DNA of 26,060 nt from a virus. The translations under genes were made by a program, and so were the position numbers. Below, piece after piece: positions 2,152 through 15,111 of the stretch. The stretch covers positions 1-26,060 of the IMG/VR virus record IMGVR_UViG_3300021961_000554; one strand, given 5' to 3'. The notes under the pieces were generated by a model. That model was not told the DNA's origin and searched no databases. It was given only the letters and a program-made list of their open reading frames with translations. Every line of letters begins with the position of its first letter. Position 1 is the stretch's first letter.

Positions 2152-2180
2152 ATTATATGTGAAATCTGTCATTGTGTCAA
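2152..2180 (-). promoter_or_regulatory. Consensus sigma70 promoter for uvsX
   Basis: On the minus strand TTGACA (2175-2180) is followed by exactly 17 bases and TATAAT (2152-2157): both hexamers match the bacterial consensus with ideal spacing. The expected start of transcription is near 2145, only about 13 bases before the uvsX ATG, so the leader is very short and the AAAGGA ribosome site sits at its 5' end. It indicates early expression by unmodified host RNA polymerase. Confidence 0.85.
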
Positions 2181-2207: not shown

Positions 2208-3202
2208 TTATGACTTCTGTTGTCGTGCTCTAATCATTGCTAGAATATCTTCTGCTTTCGAATTACCGCCACTTGTTGGTGCTGGTTGTTCTTGAACAGA
2301 TTCTGGCTGTGGAGCAGAACTAGGCTCGGGCGTCGCAGTCACAGTTGGTTGAGCAGTTTCTACTTTTACTGTTTCACCTTGTGGAAGTGCTGTGGTTCCA
2401 CTACCGGTAGCAGGTGCTTTAAAACCGCCTGGTCTAAAATACTGTGAATATTTTTCTGCATCGTAAGGCTCACCATCCACTGATGCCCTAAACATTTCTT
2501 CCATTACTTTAATTTCAACTTCGGTTGGTTTTTTAGGTAAGAAATCTGACAAATTAAATAAACCGTTAGTGTTTATTGCATTGTTTTGTTCTTCGGTTAG
2601 TGGAGTTGTTTTTCTTGACCATTTGGATGTTGAGTAGTCAGCATAACCACCTTTTGTGGTTTTATTGATTCTAAAGTCAACACCTCTGGTGTAGTCTGTT
2701 GGTAGATCTTCCATTTCAGGATCCATTAGTGCAGACTTGATAATATTAAAAATCTGCGGACCAATAATGAATCTTCTGATTGGATTTTCTGGAGTAGCAT
2801 CTTCCTGTAGTGGAGATGATACTACAAAACCTTGAAATATATATGAACGTTTTTTCCAATACTTTCTGCCTAATTCTTCCAATGATTTGTCTTTAAACCA
2901 TTGTCTTACTTCTGCAAGTATTGGACATGCTTCGTTGTACATCTCCATGCATGGAACTTGTACTTGAACTGGTCCCGAAGCGGCATCTCCTTTTACTGAA
3001 TTGAAAGGTAATTTAATCATTGCTCTTTCAGTCCAAAAGAAAGTGTTATTACTATTACCGTCTGGTAAAAAACGTATTACTGCTTCTGAATTTTCTGAAT
3101 ATTCCAGTGTGGATATATTGCGTTGTCTCCAATTTGCCCTTCACCTGATGGTTTAGAGTTTTGAGCTTGGAGTTTTGCTCTTATTTCTGTCAGTGTTGCC
3201 AT
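2208..3202 (-). CDS. 32: gp32 single-stranded DNA-binding protein, apparent -1 frameshift near 3077-3100
   Basis: gp32 coats single-stranded DNA and organises phage replication and recombination. The start is ATG at 3202, with AGGAGG at 3211-3216 at ideal spacing. The first frame reads MATLTEIRAKLQ then IYPHWN and stops after 41 codons (stop at 3077-3079). The rest of gp32 continues in the -1 frame: SENSEAVIRFLPDGN, then TFFWTERAMIKLPF, the CMEMYNEACP segment, the SYIFQGFVVSSP and NPIRRFI core motifs, and a low-complexity Pro/Gln/Thr tail with a basic end. One missing base between HWN and RFLPDG restores a continuous protein of about 331 residues, close to T4 gp32 (301). The ATG at 3020 is internal, not the real start. 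A sequencing or assembly deletion is the simplest reading; a true mutation or recoding is possible. Only two of the cysteines expected around the zinc site are evident. Confidence 0.85.
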
Positions 3203-3246
3203 AATGTAAGCCTCCTTTGTTGTTGCCTAGTGTGTATCACTGTAAT

Positions 3247-3259
3247 GTGTATAATACAC
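3247..3259. repeat. Palindrome GTGTAT-A-ATACAC over the gp32 promoter -10 element
   Basis: A perfect inverted repeat with 6-base arms and one central base covers the -10 hexamer of the gp32 promoter. A further GTGTAT half-site lies at 3232-3237, 15 bases away (start to start). Position and symmetry are those of an operator for a dimeric repressor, but no regulator is identified in the window. Confidence 0.4.
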
Positions 3260-3279
3260 AAAACTGTTTATTCTGTCAA
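3251..3279 (-). promoter_or_regulatory. Sigma70 promoter for gp32
   Basis: On the minus strand TTGACA (3274-3279), 17 bases, then TATTAT (3251-3256): perfect -35, 5 of 6 at -10, ideal spacing. The predicted start near 3244 gives a leader of about 40 bases with a strong AGGAGG site. The promoter fits in the 81-base gap between the 758-residue gene and gp32. This is host-type, early expression, in line with the uvsX promoter. Confidence 0.8.
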
Positions 3280-3283
3280 GAAA

Positions 3284-5560
3284 TTATTTTAAGCCTGATA
3301 ATCTAATTATATCGCCAAGTTCATGAGATTCTTGTTCAGATTTTTTTGTTGGTGCTTCTTTGACGCCTTTGAGTTTGGCTGTATCAGCCTTGAATTGTTG
3401 ATACAGTGTTTTGATCTTTGGTGCTATGTTTTTGTCCACCCCAATTGCATCACCCTGTCCTTTGAAACCACCTGCTGAGTTGATGGCATCTGTTACCAAT
3501 TCCCAAAACTTGCTGTAATGATCAGGCATGTCTGCCTGTTCCAAGTATTGCACAAGGTCTCCATATGAGAACATGTCATCCTCTGCAATGTCTTCACCAG
3601 CCATTATGGTTTGATACACGTCTTTCATATTCCACAGTGCGGCATTTACTAATGCTGTTTGATCTTCGCCTTCGTTGTGATCATAAGGGTTGTCATTAAT
3701 GCCTGTGGCTCTTCTGGTCTTGCCTTTTTTGCCCACTGCTACTGTGCCTGTGCTCATATCATCTTCTGCTAATCCTAAATCATTTAATTTGTCAGCCAGC
3801 CAAACATATGGATCACCATCACGTGCTTTCATTGTACCATATGGCATTTGGTCTGACGCATCTGATGATGAAAAATAAGCAAATAATTTTTCATAAACAG
3901 TAGGAGCGTCCATTAGGTCTCCTGTTTCTAAAAACTTTTTGTATTCTTCAGGATTTTGTTGAATAATCATTTTTACATAACCGTGATCTTGATTTTCAGA
4001 TAATTGAGTCTTTGCAAAAGCATCATGATACTCGGATACATCAATATCATCATCTTCGATTAATATGTTCAACCCGTCAATTTGTGAGTTAATCCATGCT
4101 TCGAATTGTTCGGATTCATTTTTATATTTTCTTAGATATTCCCTGCCTAGTTTTCCTTTTTGAATTTCTTTACCTTTTATGTCTTTGTATGCTTTTACAT
4201 CTTCTGGCGATTTTCTAACTTCATCTTTGTATGAGTCATCTGTTTTGATTCGTTTCATATCTAATAGATATTTGTTTGCTAGTTTTATTGCTGTGCCTTT
4301 TAATTTTTTAAGTTCTGGACTAGGTTTGGCAAATAATTCTCCTGACATTGCAATTTGTTGTTCCATATCCGAAGCAAAATTGACCACTGCATCGTCTTCA
4401 GGATCACCTGAAATAAATCTTGTTGCAATATCTCTTAGAATAGTTCCTAATTTTAAATTTGTATCTTTCTGTTGTGATCTTAAATTATTTTGAAATTCAT
4501 CATACGAGTCGTCTTTTTTAAGAATTAATCTTTTATTTGGATCATTTAAAAACTTTTCTACACTAGGTTGATACCTGCTTGAAGATGAGGCTTGTTTCAT
4601 AATGTCTTGTCTGCTCATACCATCTAATTCATCAGATGGTTTGAATTCATTTATCGGTAGTAATTTAAGTGCTGATAAAATAGAATCGTCAAAAGTTTCT
4701 TTTGTAAATTTCTTTTTAAAATCTGCAATATCGTCTTCTGATATTTCTTGTTCTTTTACATCTAAATTTTCTAACGCTGTTTCATATGCATTGGATTTTG
4801 ATAATTGATTTAAAATAGATAGATTATTTTCTATAATGTCTTTGGCAGCTTCGACGTAAGGAGATGTTGTTTCGTCAAGCAATCCTTGTCTCACTGTGTA
4901 AGAGTTAAAGTTTCTTAAATTACGAATTTCTTCTACTTTTTTAACAATCGATTCACCAACTGCATCATAAGGATTACCTCCTTTGGCCACATGCATCATC
5001 ATTGCTCTCGCACCTTTTAGATAATTGTATGGGAATCGAAATCTTTCGCCCTGTGCATTTTCAATGAATATACATTCTATATTTCTGGACCTAGCTCCGG
5101 GTATAGTTTCGTCTACTTGTTTTGAGTGACGTATAATCATCTTGGTTTTGTCTAGTTTGTCGTAGGATGTTTTAGGTGTTCCGTGCATTTTACTTTCCTG
5201 TACTGTATTTACTTGCGAAAGGAATTCAAAGTCCCCTTGTTCTAGATCTAATTTTTCTACATCTTGGGGTTTAAAACCTATGTTATGAGATATAGCAAAT
5301 TCACGCATATAGCTCGCAAATTGGTACCATTTATCTTCTAGATCTTTTTCTATAGAATCTGTTAGGTTTTTGTTGTAAATTAATCGCAAATTATCCTCAT
5401 CTATTGATATAGAAACTGCATTATTATTCCAATTAAACTTGAAAAACCTTGCTGATTGAGGATCTGTGGTTGCATTGGCCTCATTATCGCCCAAAGTAAG
5501 GTTACTAAACCTTGATTTTAGTTCGTCAAATAAGTCCTGTGCTACTGCGTTGAGATCCAT
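3284..5560 (-). CDS. Large conserved-type phage protein of unknown function (758 aa)
   Basis: I do not recognise this protein. It is 758 residues, hydrophilic, highly charged and mainly helical, with no signal peptide or membrane segment and no nucleotide-binding motif. Acidic and lysine-rich stretches alternate (for example about 270-300 and 405-470). It ends in a short hydrophobic helix, GDIIRLSGLK. It directly follows the large terminase gene and has a late-type promoter box 5 bases before its ATG, so it is expressed with virion genes. A virion-internal or virion-associated protein, or a packaging accessory, is the best guess from position and timing. It is not an obvious homologue of any T4 protein I can name. 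Confidence 0.85.
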   Translation of the reverse strand: MDLNAVAQDLFDELKSRFSNLTLGDNEANATTDPQSARFFKFNWNNNAVSISIDEDNLRLIYNKNLTDSIEKDLEDKWYQFASYMREFAISHNIGFKPQDVEKLDLEQGDFEFLSQVNTVQESKMHGTPKTSYDKLDKTKMIIRHSKQVDETIPGARSRNIECIFIENAQGERFRFPYNYLKGARAMMMHVAKGGNPYDAVGESIVKKVEEIRNLRNFNSYTVRQGLLDETTSPYVEAAKDIIENNLSILNQLSKSNAYETALENLDVKEQEISEDDIADFKKKFTKETFDDSILSALKLLPINEFKPSDELDGMSRQDIMKQASSSSRYQPSVEKFLNDPNKRLILKKDDSYDEFQNNLRSQQKDTNLKLGTILRDIATRFISGDPEDDAVVNFASDMEQQIAMSGELFAKPSPELKKLKGTAIKLANKYLLDMKRIKTDDSYKDEVRKSPEDVKAYKDIKGKEIQKGKLGREYLRKYKNESEQFEAWINSQIDGLNILIEDDDIDVSEYHDAFAKTQLSENQDHGYVKMIIQQNPEEYKKFLETGDLMDAPTVYEKLFAYFSSSDASDQMPYGTMKARDGDPYVWLADKLNDLGLAEDDMSTGTVAVGKKGKTRRATGINDNPYDHNEGEDQTALVNAALWNMKDVYQTIMAGEDIAEDDMFSYGDLVQYLEQADMPDHYSKFWELVTDAINSAGGFKGQGDAIGVDKNIAPKIKTLYQQFKADTAKLKGVKEAPTKKSEQESHELGDIIRLSGLK

Positions 5561-5565
5561 TGTAA

Positions 5566-5573
5566 TATTTATC
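5566..5573 (-). promoter_or_regulatory. Late promoter box GATAAATA, 5 bases before start
   Basis: GATAAATA matches the T4 late box TATAAATA at 7 of 8 positions. It ends 5 bases before the ATG at 5560. T4 late transcription starts about 5 bases after the box, so the mRNA would begin at the start codon. No ribosome site is seen. The box touches the gp17 stop codon. Confidence 0.6.
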
Positions 5574-7159
5574 TATAATCCACTAATGATAATAGGCATT
5601 GGCATTGTTAATTCTTCTTCAGAATCTCTCAGTCTTTCAAATAAATTTTGATCCCACGCTGATATGGTATTAGCCATACGTATTGCTAGTAAAGTAGCCA
5701 TGATTAAATCATCATGTTCACCGGGTTTTGCATTAAATGTATTACCTGAAGCAACAAAATTTTTAAGTTCTGATATAAGATTTTTTGAGTTTATTTTTAA
5801 TGTGTCGTTTTCCACCATTTGTTTAAATTTTGCACAAGTAGTCACTTTAGAAAGATGGGTGGTATTGTACCCTTTTCTAAACTTTCTTACATGACCTTTT
5901 CTAATAGACTCTGACAAAAATGTGCCTGGAATATTTTCTTCCCCTATATCTGAAATAGCTACGATTCCGGCTTCGCCTATTGAATTATTTTCTATAGAAT
6001 AATAAATTTCTGGTTGTAAAATTCCTTGTTGTTTGAGTTGTTCTGCAATATTTTCTATAATTTGTTTTAAAATTCTAATTTGACCTTGAATGGGTGTAGA
6101 ATTATGTTGCCATTCTCCAACTTGTTTCATCTCTGGTAGTTGGAATACTTCAATTGCGGCATAATCTCCTCCGGTCCCCATTGCTGGATCTAATGCAACA
6201 ACATATGCTTTATTTTTGGTTATTTTATCGAACCATCTTACATGTCCGTGTCGTTCTATAGGCTCAATACCTTGCAAATCGGATAATTTGATCGGAGCAA
6301 TAAGTGTTTCGTCGTATATGATAAATTCACAATCATGTTCACGTCTAAATCTTTCTTCGCCAATTCTCGATCTTTCTTCTTTAGCCCATTCTTCTGTTCT
6401 TTCTGGATGTTCACGCCACGATGCTTTAAAAGCTGCAAATCCGTTTTTGCCAACAGGCTGTTCATTGCCATAATCATCCAATCTCTTATTGGCTTCTTTC
6501 CATATCAGTGCAAATTGATCTTCGTCTGAATTAGGCGTAGATGTGATAATACACTTACCGCCGGTTGCTAGTGTAGGTGCCAGTGATGTCCAAAACTCAG
6601 ATGCTTTGGAAGGTGGATTCACAAATGCAAACTCGTCACAGTATATTACAGACAGTGACATACCTCTACCTGTGTTTTCTGTTGTGGTGGTTGCTTTGAT
6701 TCTGGATCCGTTGTCAAACTCTAATGTATTTCTATTGTATGAATATGCTCCTGCTCGCAAAAAGTCGGGTAGATTTTCATACACAAATCTCACTCTGTTC
6801 ATGATGTCTTGAGCACCTGTAAACTTGTGAGCGGCAATTAGTATCTGTGAGTCAGGCACGAACATGGCGTACCACACAAGGTAAGCGGCGGCACAAGTTG
6901 TTTTGCCTGTCTGTCTAGGCAACATAGCAATAGCAAATCTGTTATCATGATAAGTTTTTACTAGTCCTTCTTGATATTTGAACATTTCAAATTTCATTGC
7001 TCCTTTGGTAGGATGTTGAATCATGCAATAATTTTTACAAAAATATAGAGGTCCGGTTTTTGGATCCATACACTTGTTGAGTTCAAGAATATGATCTTCT
7101 GTAAATTTAGATTTTTGATGAGCTCTTTTGGTAAGATTTCCTTGAAGACTTTGTCCCAT
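5573..7159 (-). CDS. 17: Terminase large subunit gp17 (packaging ATPase/nuclease)
   Basis: This is the motor that cuts concatemeric DNA and pumps it into the prohead. The ATPase domain shows Walker A PRQTGKTT (81-88), Walker B VIYCDEFAF (171-179, catalytic D175/E176) and coupling motif TSTPN (about 207-211). The RNase H-like nuclease domain shows the three acid positions: VALDPAMG (D324), SIENNS (E390) and EHDDL (D483/D484). Length is 528 against 610 for T4 gp17. A late box lies 5 bases before its ATG. Small terminase gp16 lies upstream with one gene between. All key residues are present. Confidence 0.96.
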   Translation of the reverse strand: MGQSLQGNLTKRAHQKSKFTEDHILELNKCMDPKTGPLYFCKNYCMIQHPTKGAMKFEMFKYQEGLVKTYHDNRFAIAMLPRQTGKTTCAAAYLVWYAMFVPDSQILIAAHKFTGAQDIMNRVRFVYENLPDFLRAGAYSYNRNTLEFDNGSRIKATTTTENTGRGMSLSVIYCDEFAFVNPPSKASEFWTSLAPTLATGGKCIITSTPNSDEDQFALIWKEANKRLDDYGNEQPVGKNGFAAFKASWREHPERTEEWAKEERSRIGEERFRREHDCEFIIYDETLIAPIKLSDLQGIEPIERHGHVRWFDKITKNKAYVVALDPAMGTGGDYAAIEVFQLPEMKQVGEWQHNSTPIQGQIRILKQIIENIAEQLKQQGILQPEIYYSIENNSIGEAGIVAISDIGEENIPGTFLSESIRKGHVRKFRKGYNTTHLSKVTTCAKFKQMVENDTLKINSKNLISELKNFVASGNTFNAKPGEHDDLIMATLLAIRMANTISAWDQNLFERLRDSEEELTMPMPIIISGL

Positions 7160-14683: not shown

Positions 14684-14732
14684 ATATTGGGCTGATTATT
14701 TAAGATAATTTAAAGAGTGCTGAAAAGGTGTG

Positions 14733-14740
14733 CATAAATA
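14733..14740 (+). promoter_or_regulatory. Late promoter box CATAAATA for the HNH-like gene
   Basis: CATAAATA (7 of 8 to the T4 late box) on the plus strand ends 5 bases before a GTG at 14746, which I take as the true start. The 50-odd bases between this box and the gp18 box form a divergent late promoter region. Confidence 0.55.
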
Positions 14741-14745
14741 TATGC

Positions 14746-15111
14746 GTGCTTAACGGAAAAAAACAACAAAGGCCTTTGTGTAATGAATGCAAAAGCAAGC
14801 CAGCTGCCTACAATTATCGCAAAGGCGATAAAACATATTATCGTAAAAAATGTGATGCATGCATTCGTAAAACTAATGTATCTACAATTACTACTCCTGC
14901 TTGGCAAAGAGCAGGATATCAAAAAAAGAAATCTTGTGAAATGTGCGGATTTGTTGCTCAACACCCATTTCAATTAGATGTTTATTACATAGATGCTAAT
15001 ATGACTAATAACAGTCAAAATAATTTAAGAACAGTCTGCGCCAATTGTAATAGACTGGTGCATGCAAAAAAGACAGGCTGGAGACAGGGAGATTTATCTA
15101 TAGATAATTGA
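14746..15111 (+). CDS. HNH-like zinc protein with catalytic histidines replaced
   Basis: 121 residues from the GTG at 14746; an in-frame GTG at 14728 lies upstream of the late box and is unlikely. Two CxxC pairs (C12/C15 and C36/C39) form an N-terminal zinc knuckle. A second set, C64/C67 and C98/C101, frames an HNH-type core. In active HNH enzymes the core reads about DHIDGN and later CxxCH; here it reads YYIDAN (80-85) and CANCN, so both histidines used for metal or catalysis are gone. The fold is probably kept for DNA or protein binding. Similar histidine-less proteins occur, as I recall, near structural genes of marine T4-like phages. A homing-endonuclease relic is the alternative. It converges on the dNMP kinase gene, overlapping by 14 bases. 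Confidence 0.75.
   Translation: MLNGKKQQRPLCNECKSKPAAYNYRKGDKTYYRKKCDACIRKTNVSTITTPAWQRAGYQKKKSCEMCGFVAQHPFQLDVYYIDANMTNNSQNNLRTVCANCNRLVHAKKTGWRQGDLSIDN

Follow-up and report, generated by a model that had tools for sequence, protein, structure and literature searches.

The closest described counterpart of the locus considered here is gp32 of T4-like phages, a single-stranded-DNA-binding protein (Pfam PF08804; PHROG 1192 and 224) whose gene lies beside uvsX and uvsY. The protein is essential in T4, and T4 gp32 needs its N-terminal region for cooperative binding. A second point of reference is the single-base insertion or deletion in assembled sequence; long homopolymers are the sites where such errors are commonest, and the allele seen in an assembled contig is normally that of the majority. 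In the literature, we found nothing on point for gp32 frameshifts in metagenomic phages or for indel errors in viral contigs. The DNA analyzed here, which we call the window, is a 26,060-base linear IMG/VR contig of a marine phage, metagenomic in origin (IMGVR_UViG_3300021961_000554) and taken at its full length. It is a fragment of a T4-like myovirus, because the neighbors of gp32 are UvsX (1044-2132), UvsY (387-842), the large terminase (5573-7159) and structural genes. Probably a mobile homing endonuclease, a lone HNH gene (14728-15111) is encoded on the plus strand, opposite to its neighbors, with the tail sheath gene on one side and the following minus-strand gene on the other.

In the window, gp32 has no single uninterrupted frame from its start codon. 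A strong Shine-Dalgarno sequence, AAAGGAGG, precedes the minus-strand ATG at 3202, which opens a frame of 41 residues (3077-3202), MATLTEIRAKLQAQNSKPSGEGQIGDNAIYPHWNIQKIQKQ, which ends at a TAA (3079-3077); codons 1-35, up to HWNI, are gp32 sequence, and the last six residues, QKIQKQ, are out-of-frame. The remaining 290 residues are carried by the -1 frame (2208-3080, minus strand), which is open just past the Trp-Asn-Ile codons and stops at 2208, so that the split near the N-terminus described in the sequence-only reading is borne out. This -1 frame contains the gp32 core domain (PF08804, E 1.9e-7, over the gathering score) and matches the PHROG single-stranded-DNA-binding protein (PHROG 1192, E 3.3e-58; PHROG 224 also matches). 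A search of solved structures with an intact relative as the query returned weak matches only, the relevant ones being the phage gp32 cores 2a1k and 2atq (E about 0.02).

Comparison with relatives locates the break precisely. The nearest contigs have 82-86% nucleotide identity and 87-93% protein identity to the window (84.7% nucleotide identity between its gp32 and that of IMGVR_UViG_3300021961_010363), and they read through the site in one frame, as does the relative L011 with MATLAEIRAKLQAQNSKPSGEGQIGDNAIYPHWNIPENSEAVIRFLPDG. The alignment with gp32 of related phages, proposed earlier as a check, gives one frame in the relatives and, against the nearest contigs, a single one-base gap in the window past the Asn-Ile codons, at a codon for which these contigs have Pro. 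In the pairwise alignments with L002-L006, L009, L011 and L012 the shortfall falls at 3092-3101 (minus strand), roughly 105 bases from the start of the coding sequence and after codon 35; against G001, a 40.6-kb relative, the gap is at gene position 107. The sequence-only reading had counted 26 bases between the HWN and RFLPDG codons and had predicted that one more would make nine codons, and the relatives do have 27. Its proposal that a missing T would restore I-S-E-N-S-E did not hold: the nearest relatives read I-P-E-N-S-E (N-I-P-E-N-S-E-A-V across the site in the closest ones), which puts the shortfall in the proline codon. The site is a short repeat with no long homopolymer, and it is not at a contig end.

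We found no other record with this arrangement. The site is spanned by 78 of the best 80 homologous loci, and in all 78 a single frame runs across it. A degenerate pattern representing the unbroken site was found in 60 contigs, every one of them in gp32 and in frame (59 from the start Met and one from the contig end), whereas the corresponding one-base-short pattern was found in none, near-identical sister contigs possibly being outside the set searched. Genome assemblies contributed six gp32 homologues, all intact, and held none nearer to the window. As six contigs are common to the 78-locus and 60-contig sets, the total is approximately 138 intact relatives with none broken at the site, among records that may not include those near-identical to the window. 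The exact 25-mer of the window occurs in no other viral contig. These relatives, with conserved protein on either side of the break, uphold the view that this is a single gp32 gene interrupted by a one-base shortfall. Since every relative checked has an intact gene, the most likely explanation is a one-off mutation or an error in the sequence, rather than a new mechanism.

We therefore consider that the window most probably carries an ordinary T4-like gp32 gene with a one-base deletion that would be peculiar to this contig alone, and that in the living phage an intact gp32 would be translated from a single frame. We hold with high confidence that the deletion is a one-off event of either origin, as opposed to recoding or a functional split gene. 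Within this explanation, sequencing or assembly probably dropped the base; it is less likely that the contig represents a defective genome, rare in its population. The relative weights of these two origins, and of any functional reading, are our judgement rather than a computed quantity.

The selective regime of gp32 is consistent with a one-off deletion. Past the break, dN/dS is 0.05 against L011 and 0.04-0.10 across all nine relatives; the body of the gene is under strong purifying selection. Because dN/dS is this low, there is no sign of a long-dead gene, and gp32 would appear to have been working until very recently, or to be working still. A weak hint on the opposing side, too slight to press, comes from private amino-acid changes in gp32, of which the window has four and most relatives have 0-2 (L008 has six).

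The alternative that fares best, a true loss-of-function deletion in one genome, falls within the one-off deletion and is to be set against sequence error. Such a genome would survive only by complementation in mixed infection, or would be a dead end that the assembly happened to catch. We consider this unlikely, but it deserves more weight than any form of recoding. In its favor, the break is clean, the other compared genes are intact and the site is merely a short repeat rather than a long homopolymer. Against it stand the essential role of gp32 in T4, the tendency of contigs to report the majority allele and the otherwise conserved protein sequence. Across 18 genes compared with G001, the gap in gp32 is the only one that breaks a frame without compensation, and the remaining compared proteins match G001 in one frame as far as they align; beyond 19608, the genes were checked only for open frames that tile the sequence. 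The gp32 break is therefore isolated among the genes compared, and we reject a generally error-ridden contig. The absence of other frame errors fits a single isolated error and a real mutation equally well.

An apparent second frameshift, suggested by a two-frame match to G001 in the gene at 3284-5560 (minus strand), is explained by two separate G001 genes. The product of this gene, a 758-residue protein assigned to a PHROG virion structural family, is mosaic relative to G001: its N-terminal 516 residues and its residues 599-736 correspond to two G001 genes (L090, 13871-15430 and 11805-13868). Elsewhere in the collection, the gp32 copy L092, on the same contig as L012, has an in-frame stop (SVDG*P) within the last ~30 bases of its contig, which may illustrate sporadic sequence errors in the collection.

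Readings in which the contig is accurate and the lineage either makes gp32 through non-canonical recoding or lives with a shortened gp32 started at 3020 have, in our estimate, only a very slight chance of being correct; recoding and a functional split gene are both very unlikely. Programmed -1 ribosomal frameshifting would fuse the two frames into a full-length gp32, and the geometry is suitable, as the frame carrying the body is shifted by -1 from the start frame and overlaps it as far as the TAA. However, no slippery heptamer X_XXY_YYZ is present in the overlap, even by a relaxed rule, in agreement with the sequence-only reading, which had seen no canonical in-frame heptamer. In a test of pseudoknot-free folds, the RNA downstream of the break (3110-3020) appears to fold little better than shuffled sequence (z = -1.2; 23 of 200 shuffles equal or exceed its stability). 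The arrangement is not conserved either: none of the relatives spanning the site has it, and none needs a frameshift. With no heptamer, no strong pseudoknot-free fold and no conservation, we reject programmed frameshifting as highly improbable. The earlier alternatives were an indel error, true damage or recoding; the first two remain because recoding finds no support, there being no slippery site and no relative broken at this position.

Equally improbable is a functional split gene, in which a short N-terminal peptide would be followed by a shortened gp32 re-initiated at the ATG at 3018-3020 (minus strand), the sole body-frame start codon between the break and the core, 56 bases beyond the stop. 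The upstream context of this ATG, GGACTGAAAGAGCA, is a poor ribosome-binding site compared to AAAGGAGG at the true start, and in close relatives it encodes a conserved Met within the protein (ERAMIKLPF). A restart there would cost gp32 about 60 residues, among them conserved ones where the Pfam gp32 domain begins (residue 38 in L011) and the N-terminal part on which cooperative binding by T4 gp32 depends. No relative has a split organization. We reject re-initiation on account of the poor context and the conserved residues lost, and the independent protein starting at 3020 that had been entertained earlier is accordingly unlikely.

The upstream signals of gp32 (promoter, leader and Shine-Dalgarno sequence) are all intact in the window. 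A consensus promoter, TTGACA-17-TATTAT (3251-3279, minus strand), has hexamers that are kept or nearly kept in close relatives, and its -10 box sits within a palindrome, TGTGTATTATACACA. The leader (3203-3245, minus strand), AGTGATACACAC-TAGGCAA-AAAGGAGG-CTTACATT, also given as AGTGATACACA-TAGGCAA-AAAGGAGG-CT-ACATT, is strongly conserved among close relatives in nucleotide comparison. The promoter and leader region is possibly an operator. A structured RNA operator in the leader was rejected: there is no Rfam match, and 24 distinct leaders show no convincing covariation. The first 36 codons (3100-3202, minus strand) are unusually conserved at synonymous sites, with a pairwise synonymous difference per 12 codons of 0.15-0.29, versus about 0.3-0.5 over most of gp32; between the window and L011, only two of 32 comparable codons differ synonymously. 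This conservation could stem from translation initiation, from a regulatory site or from a recombination boundary. A perfect consensus promoter, TTGACA-17-TATAAT (2152-2180, minus strand), lies directly upstream of uvsX, adjoined by a GC-rich hairpin (2182-2199) between gp32 and uvsX.

The practical lesson is mainly one of caution: automated gene calling would give a gp32 of 270 residues without its start, and the interruption might pass for recoding. Were the phage viable with this base genuinely missing, it would have to make an essential replication protein by recoding, for which we find no support here.

Compared to frame-disrupting mutations and single-base indel errors in metagenomic contigs, the window break differs in lying outside a long homopolymer and away from the contig end, and resembles them in being isolated, contig-specific and shared by no relative; another gp32 copy in the collection likewise has a stop inside the gene, near its contig end. 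Compared to T4-like gp32, the window gene is one base short after codon 35, its frame being interrupted in this record only, and it is otherwise alike in the domain match over its body, its uvsX and uvsY neighbors, and its strong promoter and Shine-Dalgarno sequence.
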